This document shows, piece after piece, positions 1 through 32,977 of a stretch of DNA of 32,977 bases. Each line of letters opens with the position of its first letter. Within the stretch, counting starts at the first letter, position 1. The translations under genes were made by a program, and so were the position numbers. The stretch is from Phycisphaeraceae bacterium (lineage in GTDB: Bacteria; Planctomycetota; Phycisphaerae; Phycisphaerales; Phycisphaeraceae), in assembly GCA_002686995.1 (NCBI GenBank), contig NYZC01000229.1:1-32977 (forward strand), read 5' to 3'. The notes under the pieces were generated by a model that saw only the letters and a program-made list of their open reading frames with translations, was not told the origin of the DNA and made no database searches.

Positions 1-54
1 AACTGTCGATGCCCCACCGCGCTGGCCGTAGTCAGGTTCTTTCGACTTTCGACC
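1..54. repeat. Dispersed intergenic repeat, module A (left copy)
   Basis: This stretch is nearly identical to 32871-32930 in the same orientation. Both contain the core tgtcgatgccccaccgcg or cgtcgatgccccaccgcg and then run into heptad cgacttt/cgacctt repeats. No coding frame is apparent. The left copy begins at the window edge, so it may be incomplete. Confidence 0.75.
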
Positions 55-86
55 TTCCGACTTTCCGACTTGCGGGCGAAGCCCGC
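37..86. repeat. Heptad cgacttt/cgacctt tract with adjoining GC hairpin
   Basis: Degenerate 7-bp units (cgacttt, cgacctt and variants) run to about position 70. A perfect 6-bp hairpin follows at 72-86 (gcgggc, loop gaa, gcccgc). A very similar hairpin with a ttc loop abuts the same heptad family at 28381-28395, so hairpin plus heptads looks like one recurring unit. It could act as a transcription terminator, but no oligo-T tract follows. Confidence 0.6.
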
Positions 87-87
87 G

Positions 88-131
88 TTAGATTCTTCCG
101 CCGTCACTTCTTGTCGCGGTGACGAGAAGTT
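88..131. repeat. Dispersed intergenic repeat, module B with hairpin (left copy)
   Basis: This is homologous to 32798-32841 in the same orientation. The core is a 10-bp stem at 106-115 and 121-130 with a 5-nt loop. The single mismatch relative to the right copy would still pair as G-U in RNA, which hints that the structure matters. Confidence 0.7.
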
Positions 132-3673: not shown

Positions 3674-3881
3674 GGGGTATGGGGGGTACGGGTATCGGGG
3701 CGCGAAGTCGCGCTGCATCCGGAATCAGGGCGCGGCGCATCAGACCCGCGGGCTTGCGCCGCGCGGTTCGCAGGACCGGTGGCGTACCGTGGGCGTCAGC
3801 CTGGCGTCAGCCCACGGGTCGAACGTGCGGCAACCTGGGACCGAATGCGTCGCAATCCCCCGCACTCCGCACCCGAAACCC
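3674..3881. repeat. Palindromic repeat R1 (copy 1) flanked by G-rich and C-rich heptads
   Basis: This spacer lies between convergent genes. The centre is a perfect 10-bp stem at 3730-3739 and 3755-3764 around a smaller ccc/ggg stem. It shares gcgcgaag, gcatccgg and cgcatcagaccc words, in order, with 23629-23726. To its left (3674-3701) are G-rich units of 7 bp. To its right (about 3833-3895) are C-rich units of 7 bp that run up to and slightly into the end of the DUF983 gene. No gene was seen here. Confidence 0.7.
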
Positions 3882-4259
3882 TCACACCCCGTCCTCTCCC
3901 CCGCGCATCCGCAGGTAAAAGTCAAGCGCCGTGCACACGCCCTGACGCTGCGGCATGGTGAGCACGATCGCCGTGATGGTCAGGGCCAGGAACACGCCGC
4001 GTCCCATCCAGCTTTCCGGCTGGACGCCGAAGTAGAGCAGCGCGATCGCCACGGCAATGAAGATTCGGTCGCCGACGATCCAGAAGGCCCAGGTGTCGCC
4101 GGGCTTCGGCTCGAACTCGAGACGGCAATGAGGACACCGGTCGTGCAGCACGAACCAGCGCCGGAACTGGTTACCGACCCCGCAGCGCGGGCAACGTCGG
4201 CGCAGTCCGCGCCAGAGCACTCGGTGCAACGATGCCGTGCGATGCGCCGACGGGCTCAC
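3882..4259 (-). CDS. DUF983 family small membrane protein
   Basis: A 125-residue protein with two CxxC pairs (CPRC about 23-26, CPHC about 42-45) that look like a zinc ribbon. Two hydrophobic helices follow (about 57-78 and 88-102), and the C-terminus is MPQRQGVCTALDFYLRMRG. This layout of CPRC, CPHC, a PGDxWAFW-like segment and two TM helices matches DUF983, whose biochemical role is not known. The GTG start at 4259 overlaps the stop of the upstream methyltransferase by four bases (GTGA), indicating translational coupling. A longer open frame continues upstream but runs antisense inside the methyltransferase and is not credible. Confidence 0.85.
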   Translation of the reverse strand: MSPSAHRTASLHRVLWRGLRRRCPRCGVGNQFRRWFVLHDRCPHCRLEFEPKPGDTWAFWIVGDRIFIAVAIALLYFGVQPESWMGRGVFLALTITAIVLTMPQRQGVCTALDFYLRMRGGEDGV

Positions 4260-5098: not shown

Positions 5099-5131
5099 GA
5101 ACCACGGATGGACACGGATGGACACGGATGA
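5099..5131. repeat. cacggatg decamer repeat, single arm
   Basis: Three decamer units of cacggatgga type lie between a glycosyltransferase stop and a methyltransferase start. They are near-identical to one arm of the inverted pair at 136-211. Their place inside an apparent operon argues against a strong terminator role on their own. Confidence 0.75.
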
Positions 5132-10714: not shown

Positions 10715-10791
10715 CAACGAGTACTCCGGGCCGAATCGCGTTTCATCTGAAGCGGTAGCTTAGTTCATTCAGGATCGCTGTCCAGTGACGC

Positions 10792-10819
10792 GGGTTCCGG
10801 GTCTCGGGTTCCGGGTTCA
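10792..10819. repeat. Heptad gggttcc tandem repeat
   Basis: Four consecutive 7-bp units read gggttcc, gggtctc, gggttcc, gggttca. They lie in the spacer between the STAS gene start and the M48 gene end. They share period but not sequence with the other heptad tracts. Confidence 0.75.
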
Positions 10820-12966: not shown

Positions 12967-13019
12967 GGAACCGCTCGTCGCCACGGAGCGTCAGCGGGGA
13001 GGCCCCGATCGAAGCGCTC

Positions 13020-13079
13020 AATACGGATCAAGACGAATCAAGACGGATAAATACGGATAAATACGGATAAATACGGATC
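13020..13079. repeat. Degenerate decamer repeat acggataaat
   Basis: Three exact acggataaat units flanked by diverged copies with a 10-bp period lie in the 126-bp gap between lemA and the M48 gene. The shared cggat core and period link it to the cacggatg family at 136-211 and 5099-5131, although the sequence is AT-shifted. Confidence 0.7.
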
Positions 13080-13092
13080 AGTGCGGATTCGG

Positions 13093-15257: not shown

Positions 15258-15479
15258 CGAGGGCTCTCCTGACAGTACCGATGCGAACTAGTGGGTCTGG
15301 GACCTGGGGGGCCGGGGTTCGGGCGGTCTGGACTGCGGTGGAATTTGACCCGGCGCCGCGATCCTCTGCGACGACAAGGTTGACGGGACGGGTGGACTAC
15401 GCCACCTGCGCCACCTGCGTCACCCACGGGACGACTGTATCCGACGGACGGACGACCGAGCCTTACCGGCGAAGAGTGA
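15258..15479. other. Spacer between coaE and rho with degenerate G-rich heptads
   Basis: No gene is evident in this 222-bp spacer. It includes G-rich 7-bp units at 15293-15327 (gggtctg, ggacctg, gggggcc, ggggttc, gggcggt) and a short ccacctgcg duplication near 15400. The 5' end of the rho transcript probably starts here, but I could not pick a promoter. Confidence 0.45.
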
Positions 15480-16699: not shown

Positions 16700-16724
16700 G
16701 CTCCCCGCTCCCCGCTCCCCGCTC
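16700..16724. repeat. Heptad gctcccc tandem repeat
   Basis: Three perfect gctcccc units and a partial fourth abut the stop codon of nadK. The same word recurs at 23760-23779 and 25475-25565. Confidence 0.8.
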
Positions 16725-17630
16725 CTACCCTCTGCGCGGTCGGGCCGCCCAGTGCATCTTCTTCGCCAGCGTCTTCCAGTAGTTCAGCCGGGGGTTGTGG
16801 ATGAGGCGGATGCTCCGCTCGTACCGGCAGACGTAGACCTGGTCGTCGGATTCGAGCCGGAATGAAACCTGTCCGTCGACGACGAGCATGGTGCCCTCGT
16901 TGGCCCGGCTGACGCGGACGGCGACGCCGCTGCTCGCGTTGATGATGACCGGACGGAACGACAGGCTTTGCGGGCAGATCGGCGTGATGCACAGGGCATC
17001 GACGCCCGGACTGACGATCGCGCCGCCGGCGTTCAGGTTGTAGGCGGTCGATCCCGACGCGGTGGCGATGATCACGCCGTCGCCGGCGAACCGCGTCGCG
17101 CGGGTCTGGCTGCCGACCGGATCGATCGAGAGGTCAAGCTCGATCATGCGGAACGGGGTGCCGGCCGTGACGACGGCGTCGTTCATGGCGAGGCTGCGCC
17201 CCTTCAGGTGGGCCTCGTCGAGCCGATCGGCCCGGCAGTCGGCGGCGTCAGCGTCGAAGATCATGACCTCCAGCAGGAGCCGGTCGCTGCATCGGCACCG
17301 CCCGCCCGCGATCTGGTCCCAATGACGCTGCAGGTCGTCCATCTGGAACTCGGCGAGAAAGCCGACCTTGCCGAAGTTGACGCCGAGCACCGGCAGGTCG
17401 AGGTCCGCGAGGTTCCGGGCCTGGGCCAGCAGCGTCCCGTCGCCACCGAGCACCAGGGCCAGATCGGCCTCCGGAAACTCCGACGCGCCTTCGGGATCCA
17501 GCGACGTGATATCGGGCTCCGCGACGATCCGGGCACGCTGCTCGAGCCAGGGACGAAGGTCCGTGAGCGCGTCGGTGACCTCCTTCTTCAGCTTGTTCGC
17601 CAGGACGACGACGCGAAAGGGAGCGGCCAT
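16725..17630 (-). CDS. nadK: NAD kinase
   Basis: A 301-residue cytoplasmic enzyme that makes NADP from NAD and ATP. The diacylglycerol-kinase-like fold is shown by [12 protein letters not shown] (GGDGT about 62-66), [12 protein letters not shown] (about 80-92) and the glycine-rich block [23 protein letters not shown]. The conserved [23 protein letters not shown] follows. The usual NE pair of the catalytic loop reads N-D here (AMNDAVV). I take the ATG at 17630; an upstream GTG would add nine residues with no homology. No strong ribosome-binding site is visible. It may be co-transcribed with msrB, which would link NADPH supply with methionine sulfoxide repair. Confidence 0.95.
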
Positions 17631-19908: not shown

Positions 19909-20103
19909 GGGTCTGGGATCTGCTCTGGGGTTGGGGTCTGGGCCGAGGTTCGGGGCCGCAGGCCGCTCACCAACCCGCGCCCTCATCGAACCGATAGTAC
20001 ATATCGGCCATCAGGAGGGTTGGAAGAGCCCGGGCGATACACTAGTATACACATCAGCACTTAATCCGGATTTTTGGATGAATAGCGGGCGGAGCCTGAA
20101 TCG
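19909..20103. promoter_or_regulatory. Divergent uppP/metH control region
   Basis: It holds a G-rich heptad-like tract (19909-19955) and a small perfect hairpin ccgata/tatcgg (19991-20007). A possible metH -10 (tataca at 20046-20051) has a weak ttggaa upstream at a rather long spacing. A GGAG lies about nine bases before the metH ATG. I see no cobalamin (B12 box) or SAM riboswitch consensus. The promoter call is tentative. Confidence 0.3.
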
Positions 20104-23607: not shown

Positions 23608-23628
23608 GGCGGGGAACGAGTTTGGGGG

Positions 23629-23726
23629 CGCGAAGATCAACGCATCCGGCAAGGAGTCGCCGCGCATCAGACCCACGGGTCTGATGCGCGGCACGCTGAT
23701 GCCGGATGCGTTGACTTTCGCGTCCC
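23629..23726. repeat. Palindromic repeat R1 (copy 2), long two-tier hairpin
   Basis: The inner stem is a perfect 15-bp pair (23660-23674 and 23677-23691) with a 2-nt loop. An outer, slightly imperfect stem pairs gcgaagatcaacgcatccgg with its complement ending near 23724. C-rich heptads follow at 23722-23749. A related copy is at 3697-3772. It lies between convergent metH and hisB and can serve both as a terminator. Confidence 0.85.
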
Positions 23727-23759
23727 GGAACCCGATACCCGAATCCCCAGCGATGGCTC

Positions 23760-23779
23760 GCTCCCCGCTCCCCGCTCCG
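23760..23779. repeat. Heptad gctcccc tandem repeat
   Basis: Two exact units and a partial third of the gctcccc family lie just downstream of the hisB stop codon, next to the R1 palindrome. Confidence 0.7.
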
Positions 23780-23784
23780 TCCGC

Positions 23785-24384
23785 CTACAGCACGCCCTTC
23801 GTGCTCGGCACGTCGTCGCCCGACACCGCGACCGCCTGCCGCAACGCGCGGCCCAGTGCCTTGAAGATGGCCTCGGCGACGTGGTGATCGTTGACGCCGC
23901 GCGGGACTTCGACGTGGCAGTTGAAGCGGCCGTTCTGCACCAGCGCCGTGAGGAACTCGCGGACGAGCTGGAGATCGAACGATCCGACCTTCGACCCCGA
24001 GCCGGGGAACTCGACGTCGAACGCCAGCGCCGCGCGGCCCGACAGGTCGATGCTCACGCGCGCGAGCGCCTCGTCCATGGGCACCGAGGCGAAGCCGAAG
24101 CGCTCGATGCCCTTCTTGTCGTCCAGCGCCTGCTCGAGCGCCTGGCCGAGCACGATGCCGACGTCCTCGACCGTGTGGTGATCGTCGATGTGCGTGTCGC
24201 CCTTCGCGCTGACGCTCAGCGCCAGCCGGCCGTGGCGGGCCACGTGATCGAGCATGTGATCGAAGAAGCCGACGCCCGTATCGACCTGGTACGCGCCGCC
24301 GTCCAGGCCCAGCTCGACCGTCACGTCGGTCTCGTTCGTCTTGCGATGAATCTTCGCCGCGCGTGGGGCCGTACGTTTGCTCAC
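23785..24384 (-). CDS. hisB: Imidazoleglycerol-phosphate dehydratase
   Basis: A 199-residue enzyme of histidine biosynthesis that dehydrates imidazole glycerol phosphate to imidazole acetol phosphate using Mn. The two pseudo-symmetric metal motifs are both present: HIDDHHTVEDVG (about 65-76) and VNDHHVAEAIFKALGRAL. RKTNETDV, GFFDHMLDHVARH and the SGRAAL and GSFDLQLVREF segments match the family. It is the monofunctional form, without the histidinol-phosphatase domain of the E. coli protein. The GTG start overlaps the hisC stop by four bases (GTGA), so translation is probably coupled. Confidence 0.96.
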   Translation of the reverse strand: MSKRTAPRAAKIHRKTNETDVTVELGLDGGAYQVDTGVGFFDHMLDHVARHGRLALSVSAKGDTHIDDHHTVEDVGIVLGQALEQALDDKKGIERFGFASVPMDEALARVSIDLSGRAALAFDVEFPGSGSKVGSFDLQLVREFLTALVQNGRFNCHVEVPRGVNDHHVAEAIFKALGRALRQAVAVSGDDVPSTKGVL

Positions 24385-25454
24385 AGGATTTCGTCCAGGG
24401 CCGCGATCAGCGCCTGGTTCTGCTCCGGCAGACCCACGGTGATGCGTAGGCGGTCGCTCAGTCGCGGCTGATCAAAGTATCGCACGAATATGCGTCGCTG
24501 CTTGAGCGATTCGTAGAGAGCGGCCGCCCCGGGCGTCTCCGGGGCCCGGGCCAGCACGAAGTTGGACGCGCTCGGCAGGATCGTGAACCCCCGCGCGTCG
24601 AGCCGCTCGACCATGGATGACCGCTCCGCCCGGACGCGCCGCCACGATTCGGACGCCTCGTCGCGGTGCTCCAGCGCCGCGGTCGCGGCGACCTGGCTGA
24701 CGATGTCGGTGTTGTAGCTGTCGCGCGCCTTGTCGAGCGCGGCGACGAGCGACGGCGTCCCGATGCCGTAGCCGAACCGAAGACCCGCGAGCGCGTAGCC
24801 CTTGCTCAGGGTTCTCAGCACCAGGACGTTGTCGAGCGCCCCGCCGCGCACGAGATCCAGCGCGTCGGCGTCGGCGAAATCCACGTAGGCCTCGTCGACC
24901 AGCAGGACGGCCTCGCCCGCAAGGCGCCGCGCGATCGCGTCGAGCGTCGCAAGGGGGCGCGGCAGGCCCGTCGGTGCGTGTGGACTCACGAGGATCGCAA
25001 GACGGCAGCCGGCGGCCACCACGCGGCCGGCGAAGTCGTCGGGAATGCCGAATTCGTCGTCGAGATCCACCTCGACGACGGCGGTACCGGCGATGCGGCC
25101 CAGCGTCGGGTACAGCGAATAGGTCGGCCGCGTCACGGCAAGTCCACCGCGCTGCGCCGATTCGCAGAAGACCGTCACGGCGAGGCGCAGCAACTCGTCG
25201 CCGCCGTTAGTCGCGATCACCGATTCGGCGGCGACATCGTGCACCGCGGCCGCGACCCCGCGAAATCGATCCGCCGCCGCCGGCGGATAGCGGCGCAGCT
25301 GCTCGCCCGACACCGCCCGGATCGCATCAAGGACCGGTGCCGGCGGCGGATAGGGATTCTCGTTCGTGTTGAGCTTGACGACGCTGACGTCATCCGGCTG
25401 CTCACCTGGCACGTAAGGCTCGAGCGCCTCGATGTTTTCACGAACGTATGACAT
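24381..25454 (-). CDS. hisC: Histidinol-phosphate aminotransferase
   Basis: A 357-residue fold-type I PLP enzyme that converts imidazole acetol phosphate, the product of HisB, to histidinol phosphate. LNTNENPYPPP (about 28-38) and the PLP lysine in TLSKGYALAGLRFGYG (Lys about 218) are diagnostic. LLVDEAYVDFAD (about 184-195) holds the aspartate that contacts PLP nitrogen. The usual NPNNPTG block reads SPHAPTG, so the Asn before PTG is Ala, a variation also found in some HisC proteins. The ATG at 25454 follows an in-frame GTG. hisC and hisB form a two-gene operon; other his genes are elsewhere. Confidence 0.95.
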   Translation of the reverse strand: MSYVRENIEALEPYVPGEQPDDVSVVKLNTNENPYPPPAPVLDAIRAVSGEQLRRYPPAAADRFRGVAAAVHDVAAESVIATNGGDELLRLAVTVFCESAQRGGLAVTRPTYSLYPTLGRIAGTAVVEVDLDDEFGIPDDFAGRVVAAGCRLAILVSPHAPTGLPRPLATLDAIARRLAGEAVLLVDEAYVDFADADALDLVRGGALDNVLVLRTLSKGYALAGLRFGYGIGTPSLVAALDKARDSYNTDIVSQVAATAALEHRDEASESWRRVRAERSSMVERLDARGFTILPSASNFVLARAPETPGAAALYESLKQRRIFVRYFDQPRLSDRLRITVGLPEQNQALIAALDEIL

Positions 25455-25474
25455 CACGGAAAATCATAGCTCAT

Positions 25475-25565
25475 GCTCCCCACTGCCCGCTCCAAGCGCC
25501 CCGCTCCACGCTCCTCGCTCCACGCGCCTTGCTCCCCGCTCCTTGCTCCCCGCCCTTCGCTTCGC
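25475..25565. repeat. Thirteen-unit heptad array (gctcccc family)
   Basis: Thirteen consecutive 7-bp units keep perfect register: gctcccc, actgccc, gctccaa, gcgcccc, gctccac, gctcctc, gctccac, gcgcctt, gctcccc, gctcctt, gctcccc, gcccttc, gcttcgc. The array occupies nearly all of the divergent gap between hisC and the secreted helical-repeat gene, so it overlies or displaces their promoters. Confidence 0.9.
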
Positions 25566-25578
25566 CTAGACTGATCAC

Positions 25579-27090
25579 ATGAGGCTTTCGTTCGCGCCGT
25601 GGCTGATCGTGACGTCGTTGCTGCTCGCCCTCGGCGTCCCCGCCCCGGCCGACGATACGGACCAGACCACCCAGTCCGCGATCTTTCTCCTGCGCCGCTG
25701 CCGCAAGCGGCAGCGCGACTATCGCGGCATGGCCACCGGTTCGACGATGCTCAGGGCGTTGCGCCAGCTCGGCGACCCCGAGCTCGCTCCCTTCTTCCGT
25801 GCGCTGATCGACACCGAGCGCCCCTGGCTCACGGTCCACGGCATCCTGGGCCTCGCCGAGTGCTCCGAGGACCAGCGCATCGACCTGTCGCTCATCAGCG
25901 AGATGGAGAACGAGCTGCTCCAGCGCATGGTGCTCAGCGCCGCGATGGACCTCGACCTGATCGACGTCGCCCAGGTTCGGCAGGTCATGGCCTGGAGCGA
26001 CCTGCACGAGTCGGTGAGCGTGCTCGCCGCCGTCCACCTGATCGGGCACGGCGAGGCGCCCGACCTCGACGCGCTGCGCTCCGCCACCGAGTCGGAGAAG
26101 CTCGGCCGCGCGAGCCTGGCCGCCCTGCTGATGGTGCAGTCCGGCGAGACCGGGTACGGACAGCAGCTCACCGAGCTCAGCGAGTCCGACCATCCCGATC
26201 GCGACAAGGTCCGCGAGCACCTGCTGCGGACCAGCTTCAAGTCGGAGTTCGACCTCGTCGGACCGTGGGCGCTGAGCATCAGCGAGCAGGAGGACGCCGA
26301 CCCCCGCATGCGCCGACTCGCGCTCCAGGTCGCGCTGCGATTCAACACGAGCGGCGCCGTCCAGACCTGGCGCAAGCAGTTTCTCGCGACGGCCGACCAT
26401 GTCGAGCGCATCCGGCTCGCGCTGGTGGCCCTCAACGTCTCGCACTGGGCTCAGCCCCGCCTCTTCGAGACGCTGATCGAATCATCCGACGCCCTGCTCG
26501 AGCAGATCGGGCGCACCGGACAGGCCGTCGCGAGCCGCAAGGAGATCGTCACCGAGGTGGGCAAGGCGATCGAGCAGAATCACCAGAAGGTCAGCGACTG
26601 GGCGCTGGACTACGCGCACGAGCTGGCCGAGAAGCAGGACGCCCGTCATATCCTCCTCGCGATCATCCTGGCGTTCGAAGGGCCGCCGCGCAACCTCGCC
26701 CGCCGGCTGAAGAATTCGATCGCCGCGACGTCGACGCTGATGGATCACGACCCGGATGCGGCGAAAGAGATGTTGCGGCCGATCCTTCTCAGCCCGGAGA
26801 CCGACACGCGATTGAAGCGCGGCATCCTTGCCGGTCTCGTGCAGAGTCGCAAGCAGAACCCGATGCCAATCATCGAGGGCGTGCCGCTGGCCCATCCCCA
26901 GGACTACCAGCTGACCCTTCTCATTCGCGCGCGTCAAGGCCTGGACCTGTCGGAGGAGGACCTGGAGAATCTTGCCCTGATGGTCCGGGGCGGCGGCAAG
27001 TTCTCGCCGCATCTCCGCCTGCAGGCCGCCTGGACGTATCTCAAGTACGTCGACCGCACGGAAATGGCCCTCGAAGCCGCACTCCAGTAG
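25579..27090 (+). CDS. Secreted or periplasmic helical-repeat protein of unknown function
   Basis: A 503-residue protein with a clear signal peptide (MRLSFAPWLIVTSLLLALGVPAPA, likely cleavage near residue 24, before DD). The mature part is almost entirely helical with leucine/alanine-rich helix pairs (for example LRALRQLGDPELAPFFRALI and MRRLALQVALRFNTSGAVQTWRKQF). This suggests a HEAT-like solenoid. I see no catalytic motif and no TM helix after the signal. I do not recognise a named family. It could be a scaffold or binding protein in the periplasm or at the surface. The adjacent genes, hisC on the other strand and a DegT aminotransferase downstream after 111 bp, do not indicate its role. 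Confidence 0.8.
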   Translation: MRLSFAPWLIVTSLLLALGVPAPADDTDQTTQSAIFLLRRCRKRQRDYRGMATGSTMLRALRQLGDPELAPFFRALIDTERPWLTVHGILGLAECSEDQRIDLSLISEMENELLQRMVLSAAMDLDLIDVAQVRQVMAWSDLHESVSVLAAVHLIGHGEAPDLDALRSATESEKLGRASLAALLMVQSGETGYGQQLTELSESDHPDRDKVREHLLRTSFKSEFDLVGPWALSISEQEDADPRMRRLALQVALRFNTSGAVQTWRKQFLATADHVERIRLALVALNVSHWAQPRLFETLIESSDALLEQIGRTGQAVASRKEIVTEVGKAIEQNHQKVSDWALDYAHELAEKQDARHILLAIILAFEGPPRNLARRLKNSIAATSTLMDHDPDAAKEMLRPILLSPETDTRLKRGILAGLVQSRKQNPMPIIEGVPLAHPQDYQLTLLIRARQGLDLSEEDLENLALMVRGGGKFSPHLRLQAAWTYLKYVDRTEMALEAALQ

Positions 27091-28380: not shown

Positions 28381-28503
28381 CGCGGCTTCGCCGCGGGTCG
28401 AAGGTCCAAGGTCGAAAGTCGAAGGTCTCGAAGCTGCCGCACGACCTTCGACCTTCGACCTTCGACTTTCGACCTTGGACTTTCGACCTTGGACCTTCGA
28501 CCG
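28381..28503. repeat. GC hairpin plus inverted heptad arrays, likely bidirectional terminator
   Basis: Directly after the aminotransferase stop is a perfect hairpin (cgcggc, loop ttc, gccgcg, 28381-28395). A left array (28396-28430, ggtcgaa-type units) and a right array (28443-28498, eight gaccttc-type units) are mutually complementary and end three bases before the convergent ychF stop. A large stem can form in either transcript. Confidence 0.85.
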
Positions 28504-28505
28504 AC

Positions 28506-29591
28506 TCAGACGTTGAAGAGAAAGTGGCAGACGTCACCATCCTGGACGACGTAGTCCTTGCCCTCGGTGCGCATCTTTCCCGCCGCCTTGATGGCCTGCT
28601 CGGTGCGATGCTCCTGCAGGTCGGCAACGGTGTAGACCTCGACGCGGATGAAGCCGCGCTCGAAGTCGCTGTGGATGACGCCGGCCGCCTGCGGGCCGGT
28701 CGCGCCGATGGGCGTCGTCCAGGCCCGGATCTCCTTCGGGCCGGCGGTGAAGAAGCTCTGGAGACCGAGCAGCTTGTAGGCGGCACGGGCGACGACGTTC
28801 AGCGCCGGCTCCGTGAGTCCCAGGCCCGCGAGCATCTCGTCGCGCTCCCCGGGCTCGAGCTCGGCCAGCTCGGCCTCGAGCCTGGCGCAGACGGCCACCG
28901 CCTCGCCGCCGTTCTCCCCGGCGTACTTCCGCACGGCCTCGACGGCCGGGGCGTCCTGCGCCTCGTCCTCGCCGATGTTGGCGACGTACAGCACCGGCTT
29001 GGCGCTGAGCATCGCGAAACTGCGGAGGATCTTCTCCTTCTGCTCGTCGAGCGCCGGCAGCAGGCTCCGCAGCGGACGGCTCGCCTCGAGCTCCTGCTGG
29101 CACTGCTCCATGAGCTCCAGGCGCATCTTCGCCTCCTTCTCGCCGGTCCGGGCCTTGCGCTGGGCGTTGCGGATCGAGTTCTCGACGACCTCGAGATCGG
29201 CCAACAGCAGCTCGGTCTCGACCTCCTCGATGTCGCTGACGGGGTCGATCCGCTCGTGGACGTGCGGCACGGACGCGTCCTCGAAGCACCGCGCCACGTG
29301 GATGATCGCGTCGACGTTGCGGATGTGGGCCAGGAACTTGTTGCCCATCCCCTCGCCCTTGCTGGCGCCCGCCGCGAGCCCCGCCACGTCCACGAGCTGA
29401 ATCGTCGCGGGCACGATCTTCTTCGTCTCGACGTACTCGTGGATGATCTCGAGGCGCGGATCGGGCACGTTGACCATGCCGACGTTGGGCTTCGCGGCCG
29501 AGCCGCCCGCGGCGTCGAGCCCCAGCGCCGTCATCGCGTTGAACAGCGCGGTCTTGCCGATGTAGGAGAGACCGACGATTCCAGCTTCCAT
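28506..29591 (-). CDS. ychF: Redox-regulated ATPase YchF (Obg-like)
   Basis: A 361-residue P-loop NTPase of the Obg-like/YchF group, which prefers ATP over GTP and associates with ribosomes. The P-loop is GLSYIGKTALFNAMT (about 7-21), where most YchF proteins have GLPNVGKSTLFNALT. The G3 block is VDVAGLAAGASKGEGMGNKFL, typical of the family. A long coiled insertion (about 125-180) is followed by VANIGEDEA in the specificity region. The TGS domain closes with RTEGKDYVVQDGDVCHFLFNV. The start MEAGIVGLS is fixed by family alignment; the open frame continues upstream antisense through gyrA but is not coding there. It is divergent from gyrA. Confidence 0.95.
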   Translation of the reverse strand: MEAGIVGLSYIGKTALFNAMTALGLDAAGGSAAKPNVGMVNVPDPRLEIIHEYVETKKIVPATIQLVDVAGLAAGASKGEGMGNKFLAHIRNVDAIIHVARCFEDASVPHVHERIDPVSDIEEVETELLLADLEVVENSIRNAQRKARTGEKEAKMRLELMEQCQQELEASRPLRSLLPALDEQKEKILRSFAMLSAKPVLYVANIGEDEAQDAPAVEAVRKYAGENGGEAVAVCARLEAELAELEPGERDEMLAGLGLTEPALNVVARAAYKLLGLQSFFTAGPKEIRAWTTPIGATGPQAAGVIHSDFERGFIRVEVYTVADLQEHRTEQAIKAAGKMRTEGKDYVVQDGDVCHFLFNV

Positions 29592-32797: not shown

Positions 32798-32841
32798 TTA
32801 GATTCTTCCGGCGTAACTTCTCGTCACGGCGACGAGAAGTC
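32798..32841. repeat. Dispersed intergenic repeat, module B with hairpin (right copy)
   Basis: This copy forms a perfect 10-bp stem (acttctcgtc at 32816-32825 and gacgagaagt at 32831-32840, loop acggc). It matches 88-131 and lies just downstream of the gyrA-STAS genes, a plausible terminator position. The 12-mer gctagtcattaa precedes it here (32782-32793) and also occurs at 237-248. Confidence 0.75.
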
Positions 32842-32977
32842 CAAGGTCCAAGGTCCAAGGTCGAAAGCGGAACCGTCGATGCCCCACCGCGCCGGCCGAA
32901 GTCCGGTTCTGTCGACTTTCGACTTTCGACCTTCGACTTTCGACTTTCGACCCTCGACTTTCGACTTTCGACCTTCG
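32842..32977. repeat. Heptad arrays and module A (right copy)
   Basis: Units ggtccaa and ggtcgaa (about 32842-32867) are followed by module A (32871-32910), then about nine cgacttt/cgacctt heptads running to the window edge. The flanking arrays are in opposite sense, as at 28396-28498. No gene is evident. Confidence 0.8.

Follow-up and report, generated by a model that had tools for sequence, protein, structure and literature searches.

Heptanucleotide tandem arrays of many different words share a period and a polarity in the intergenic spacers of a Phycisphaeraceae bacterium

The GGGAATC heptamers of Xanthomonas, reported together with the GGGGA(C/T)T heptamers of Nostoc (Rehm et al., 2015; PMC4692102), are dispersed and about 90% intergenic, vary in unit number and form 70–75 convergent inverted pairs. 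They are located nearer to the ORF on their 5′ side irrespective of the orientation of that ORF, and are rare between divergent ORFs. Most loci are common to the two Xanthomonas genomes compared, while their lengths vary, and the formation of G-quadruplexes was invoked for their GGG runs (PMC4692102). The same paper refers to earlier work in which heptamers were found in excess in many bacteria, to a hypothesis linking the 7 bp to the active site of DNA polymerase, and to three STRR heptanucleotides in Calothrix PCC 7601 (PMC4692102). A different type, direct repeats of TAACTGA in Beggiatoaceae, Cyanobacteria, and Bacteroidetes, was described by MacGregor (2015; PMC4679880). These consist of one fixed word whose near-neighbour words are seldom repeated, are located mostly just upstream of start codons, and are essentially unpaired, with 169 direct sets vs. 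one indirect set.

The window analysed here is a stretch of 32,977 nucleotides, contig C229 of a Phycisphaeraceae genome (G000; 7.8 Mb, 446 contigs, 87.6% complete), whose metH protein has its closest relatives in Phycisphaeraceae-type planctomycetes at 65–67% identity. A first-pass annotation had proposed that a strict 7-bp-period repeat class with several different words fills many of its intergenic spacers. Tandem Repeats Finder was run as a period census on the window and 73 loci (1.13 Mb; consecutive contigs C1–C72), in which spacers made up 10.6% of the sequence and the genes, called by a purpose-written codon-usage caller, are approximate. The caller made at least one strand error, a plus-strand ORF at 28524 where ychF is on the minus strand, so the polarity count described below was redone with high-confidence genes only. 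The wider working sample comprised stretches of G000 of about 1.27 Mb. Related genomes are denoted G014, G024, G072, and G377, and loci by L-numbers; G024 belongs to the same family and shares the main heptad word with G000.

The census revealed 48 intergenic vs. 3 coding arrays of period 7, and five first-order shuffles of the spacers gave on average 0.0 period-7 and 0.4 period-10 arrays. In contrast, periods 9, 12, 15, and 21 predominated inside genes, as predicted by the reading frame (period 12, 7 intergenic vs. 60 coding; period 15, 7 vs. 42). The period-7 excess is real and confined largely to spacers, and the survey showed neither a lack of excess nor an equal presence within genes. The proposal that the tracts are almost wholly intergenic was thus borne out, and so was a sharp excess in spacers relative to shuffles, although it is not unique to this period, since period 10 was as common (45 intergenic vs. 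5 coding arrays). The word “strict” was too strong, because 8-bp units are also present. The period-10 arrays constitute a second spacer class, not listed as such in the first-pass annotation. This class, represented by CACGGATGAA / CACGGATGGA and relatives, was seen in the window at 139–210, 5103–5130, and 13018–13088 and at L194:104–254, sometimes as facing pairs with strong hairpins (139–210, z = −7.5). With two mismatches allowed, its word was matched in 19 of 61 related genomes, and the matches numbered 428 in G000, 64 in G006, and 38 in G014. Nothing relevant turned up when the literature was searched for the heptad and decamer words in their exact form, and no paper on the period-10 word was found.

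The array put forward as the clearest case, 13 heptads between hisC and the next gene, was confirmed. It occupies positions 25475–25565 (13 × 7 bp, degenerate), with a period-7 identity of 54/84 against a shuffle mean of 0.40 (p = 0.0005), and lies entirely inside a spacer of 124 bp, flanked by the gene of a class I/II aminotransferase (24381–25457, minus strand; Pfam Aminotran_1_2), the hisC of the first-pass annotation, and by an ORF starting at 25579. The minus strand is the G-rich one (GGGGAGC-like) and adjoins that ORF. In folding, the array does not surpass shuffles (z 0.61), and it is thus a single unpaired arm. The tracts listed with it were split into 14 stretches and each compared with shuffles, and 10 of the 14 exceeded them at p < 0.05. 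Besides the headline array, period 7 was clear (p ≤ 0.012) at 10792–10819, 16700–16724, 23722–23749, 23760–23779, 28396–28427, 28442–28502, 32839–32865, and 32911–32977, and marginal at 37–70 (p = 0.034), where 8-bp units are intermixed; four stretches (3674–3701, 3833–3895, 15293–15327, and 19909–19955) were individually not above chance (p = 0.07–0.27). Tandem Repeats Finder and the shuffle test both supported an array of the word CGGGTTC at about 10791–10819 (plus strand) and a perfect GCTCCCC array at about 16700–16725 (minus strand). The two C-rich tracts at about 23722–23779 (minus strand) are located in a spacer that is strongly palindromic (23608–23784, z = −8.85), at its right end, and the degenerate GGGTCTG array at 19909–19955 (plus strand, p = 0.07) is located in the divergent uppP/bacA–metH spacer. 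Two intervals that had been read as single tracts, 28396–28498 and 32842–32977, each proved to be two heptad arrays facing each other, with gaps of 23 and 45 bp, respectively. In the former, the left arm of RGTCSAA heptads (28396–28427, plus strand, p < 0.0005) has as its partner a right arm (28442–28502, minus strand) that lies between the stop codon of a DegT-family gene (28380) and that of ychF (28506, minus strand).

RGTCSAA is the commonest word family, with 165 GGTCGAA, 60 AGTCGAA, and 29 GGTCCAA units in the first sample. Adjacent RGTCSAA arrays always face each other, with RGTCSAA on the left and its complement on the right (14 pairs, 0 reversed), and an exact search of the whole genome for such pairs with a gap of 16–46 bases gave 14 matches at about nine places vs. 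0 in reverse order. The same layout occurs in GATTATT-like, CGGGTT-like, and GGGGAGC-like words. Altogether, opposite-strand arrays in one spacer formed 26 G-strand-first pairs and 0 reversed ones, drawn from G000 together with 80 related loci and four genomes of relatives, of which pairs slightly fewer are independent owing to an overlap between G024 and L088; without L088, there were 13 such pairs in G000 and 11 in relatives, again with 0 reversed. Regarding genes, the G-rich strand is nearer its 5′-side ORF in 74 of 83 arrays (74:9), or 77:9 with high-confidence genes only. Period 8 follows the same polarity (23:2), which is absent for periods 9, 10, 11, and 13, period 12 having too few arrays. 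The polarity is weaker yet present in relatives (51:25, p = 0.004), and spacers free of heptads are skewed in this direction too, though only slightly. When each word was counted once among at least 32 words, 26 obeyed the polarity and 5 did not. The G-strand-first layout is independent of any particular word. The arrays are located mainly at spacer borders, at a median of 17 bp from the 5′-side ORF vs. 132–150 bp on the other side (RGTCSAA and mixed-word groups), and often begin a few bases past stop codons.

Part of the RGTCSAA family is carried by a dispersed palindromic cassette, named element A, in which two heptad arms face each other across a 45-bp core. The first arm is preceded by a REP-like module (TTAGATTCTTCC..CTTCTCGTCACGGCGACGAGAAG), and the second is sometimes followed by GCGGGCGAAGCCCGC. 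At least 20 copies are present in G000 at 84–100% identity, as in a mobile element with many near-identical dispersed copies, and no full-length copy was found among 40 relatives, in which matches were limited to the heptads or to 24 bases. One copy in the window (32798–32977, plus strand), cut by the contig end, contains the module (32798–32840), a GGTCCAA-rich left arm (32839–32865, plus strand; Tandem Repeats Finder and arm measurement), the conserved core (32866–32910), and an AGTCGAA-rich right arm (32911–32977, minus strand; Tandem Repeats Finder). A second, partial copy (1–128, plus strand) consists of a core (1–40), a heptad/octad arm (41–71), the hairpin GCGGGCGAAGCCCGC (72–86), and the REP-like module (about 90–128). 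In seven copies having both module and core, the length of the arm between them, taken from BLAST hits, was 26, 26, 26, 33, 40, 40, and 82 bp, each of which leaves a remainder of 5 when divided by 7; in an eighth copy (L172) the automatic landmark chose a second module copy, and the nearer module gives 40. These lengths are direct evidence for the gain or loss of whole 7-bp units between homologous flanks. The module itself (TTAGATTCTTCCGG..ACTTCTCGTCACGG.GACGAGAAGT at 90–128 and 32798–32840) gave 37 BLAST hits in 1.27 Mb and borders heptad and decamer arrays alike, so that the modules are combined freely.

Facing pairs fold far better than shuffles at several loci (z −6 to −11), with values of about −7 to −11 for pairs without the element A core and of −2.5 and −6.2 for two element A copies. 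At 28396–28502, the variant order of the right arm mirrors that of the left arm, forming a long hairpin (z = −9.7). Across nine non-element-A loci, variant likeness was 0.543 within a locus vs. 0.425 between loci (p = 0.0036), as expected under copying or correction between arms. Such correction is not general, since the two arms of element A are unlike each other, the left being rich in GGTCCAA and the right in AGTCGAA. Nested palindromic spacers with outer RGTCSAA arms and GC-rich hairpins inside were also observed (L009:9179–9770, L016:7218–7610, L017:13011–13590, L041:5881–6135, and L011:11700–12811). The L009 spacer has an inner pair of GTGTCAA/GGGTCAA heptads, and L011 has two matching arms at a distance of about 1 kb; the gene between them was considered as a transposase, a candidate rejected because its translation is rRNA methyltransferase-like.

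The density of heptads varies widely among relatives. Intergenic heptad arrays numbered 46 per 100 kb of spacer in G000, 40 in G014, 38 in G377, 27 in G024, and 25 in G072, some G024 and G072 stretches having been picked for holding the GGTCGAA word, and 5 in 80 related loci. The words vary from genome to genome. GGTCGAA arrays were found in 3 of 392 sampled planctomycete genomes at one mismatch, a draw that G024 lies outside, and in 2 of 41 near relatives. A reversed control pattern, AAGCTGG × 3, gave 38 matches in G149 and 12 in G309 of the same phylum, which are probably coding repeats. The divergent uppP–metH spacer holds GGGTCTG in G000, AAGTCGA and AATGACA in G024, and CGGGGAT in L127. 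The first-pass annotation had argued from a shared period with differing words for a common mechanism rather than one spreading element. The first half gained support from the at least 32 words sharing period and polarity, from the 26 vs. 0 opposite-strand pairs, and from this orthologous spacer with different words in three species; the second half is only partly right, since element A carries part of RGTCSAA, the commonest word family. The assembly is fragmented, and repeat arrays are enriched at its contig ends (RGTCSAA arrays at 14 of 117 ends vs. 22 of 5410 inner bins), as repeats break assemblies. The ends of contigs C7 and C15 (L008 right, L032 left) look overlapping, with the same variant string and one heptad different, which could reflect population copy-number variation or an assembly artefact.

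We consider it fairly probable that the arrays are heptamer minisatellites specific to this lineage, which grow by slippage where spacers are prone to form hairpins, and that a palindromic element spread some of their copies. Whole 7-bp units would be gained or lost through slipped-strand synthesis or unequal recombination. Many arrays are paired as facing arms of an inverted repeat, G-rich strand first, and can fold into long hairpins; such palindromes may promote slippage or recombination and help one arm to copy or correct the other. The RGTCSAA family has been spread in part inside element A, a palindromic mosaic, and 7-bp steps, which break the reading frame, would be tolerated only outside genes. 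A dedicated function of the arrays, unsupported by gene context, is possible but presumably absent.

The dispersal of element A raises the question of whether the arrays are terminal arms of small palindromic elements of the MITE/REP/BIME kind, non-autonomous and mobilized by a transposase, with isolated arrays as remnants. Besides its at least 20 copies, absent at full length from all 40 relatives, convergent-pair loci share, as judged by eye, inner motifs (GCGCGCCGGCTGCGCCGGCG-like, GAGGCCCGTGCGG, and AAGTGTCAAG) and outer ends like GAGTCGGAA, and three Y1 transposase matches exist in G000. However, a common core is lacking for many heptad words, no such repeats occur at the strongest Y1 locus on a stretch of 1.8 kb, and Y1 matches in 8 of 8 genomes tested do not track the repeats, which makes this reading rather unlikely. 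The strong folding of paired arms could alternatively indicate that the arrays are kept for hairpin action in RNA or DNA, such as termination, protection of mRNA 3′ ends, translational insulation, or topology between genes. Their position close behind stop codons and nearer the 5′-side ORF would agree with this, and a C-rich coding strand ahead of starts would avoid Shine-Dalgarno-like sequence. We regard such a role as improbable, given that many arrays are single unpaired arms, that the headline array does not fold, that words and copy numbers turn over, and that no known RNA family was matched by Rfam in the window. Heptads occurred in 12% of spacers between convergent genes, 15% of those between co-directional genes, and 9% of those between divergent genes, and a bidirectional terminator as the main role was rejected for this lack of convergent-gene enrichment.

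Two further explanations start from the unit itself. The polarity and position rule is the same as in Xanthomonas (PMC4692102), and some words here are rich in G tracts (GGGTCTG, GGGGAGC), as though a G-quadruplex of the G-rich strand, proposed for GGGAATC, underlay the class; yet 61 of 80 period-7 arrays lack four GGG runs, and RGTCSAA and GATTATT-like words, which have no GGG runs, obey the polarity nonetheless, rendering this highly improbable. A fixed unit length with varying words would suit the template-sized step of a reverse transcriptase or telomerase-like enzyme that writes the heptads by templated addition. This seems barely credible, as no RVT_1 match was found in G000 (87.6% complete) or G072 and variants within arrays resemble mutated neighbour copies, not rewrites; RVT_1 matches are present in relatives such as G009 and G019.

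Simple slippage, the core of the reading we favor, does not predict the word-independent polarity at gene borders or the choice of 7 over 5, 6, 9, or 11. We tentatively suggest, while considering it rather unlikely, that a word-independent process builds arrays in 7-bp steps at gene borders with fixed polarity in bacteria as unrelated as Planctomycetota, Xanthomonas, and Nostoc. The word would then be arbitrary and drifting, and machinery would set the step and the G-first geometry; a polymerase that slips by 7 nt on entering a hairpin is one example. Heptamer arrays have so far been described word by word and explained by properties of the word, such as a quadruplex or a protein site. Dozens of words with one geometry, most of them not quadruplex-capable, mean that the explanation must be sought in the step of 7 bp and the location in spacers, not in the word, and “why seven” becomes testable through comparison of words within one genome.

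Compared with known systems, the planctomycete arrays belong to the heptameric intergenic SSR class of the Xanthomonas/Nostoc type and lie outside its G-quadruplex subtype: they show the period-7 spacer excess, the convergent G-first pairs, and the G strand nearer the 5′-side ORF, and most of them have no G runs for a three-tetrad quadruplex, unlike GGGAATC. Similar to the cyanobacterial STRR sequences, several distinct tandem heptanucleotide words occur in one genome; the STRR consensus words differ from those found here, where the host is a planctomycete and RGTCSAA and others dominate. The comparison with STRR made in the first-pass annotation was apt, although the Xanthomonas GGGAATC arrays, likewise intergenic, paired convergently, and with the same 5′-side preference, are the nearer precedent (PMC4692102). 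The arrays resemble the TAACTGA repeats in being heptamers in spacers near genes with a patchy distribution (PMC4679880), and differ in having many words, often in facing pairs, rather than one word in direct orientation; TAACTGA does not occur in the array lists of this analysis. Like REP/BIME mosaics, element A is composed of short palindromes and dispersed among spacers, but it includes heptad arms of variable length. As regards movement by a RAYT-type transposase, none of these repeats was seen at the strongest Y1 locus on 1.8 kb of sequence. In contrast to the Xanthomonas and Nostoc study, with one word type per genome (PMC4692102), this genome contains many words, and part of its arrays are located within a dispersed palindromic cassette and beside a period-10 class. 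A word-independent geometry and 7-bp stepping inside a dispersed element are thereby added to the known class.
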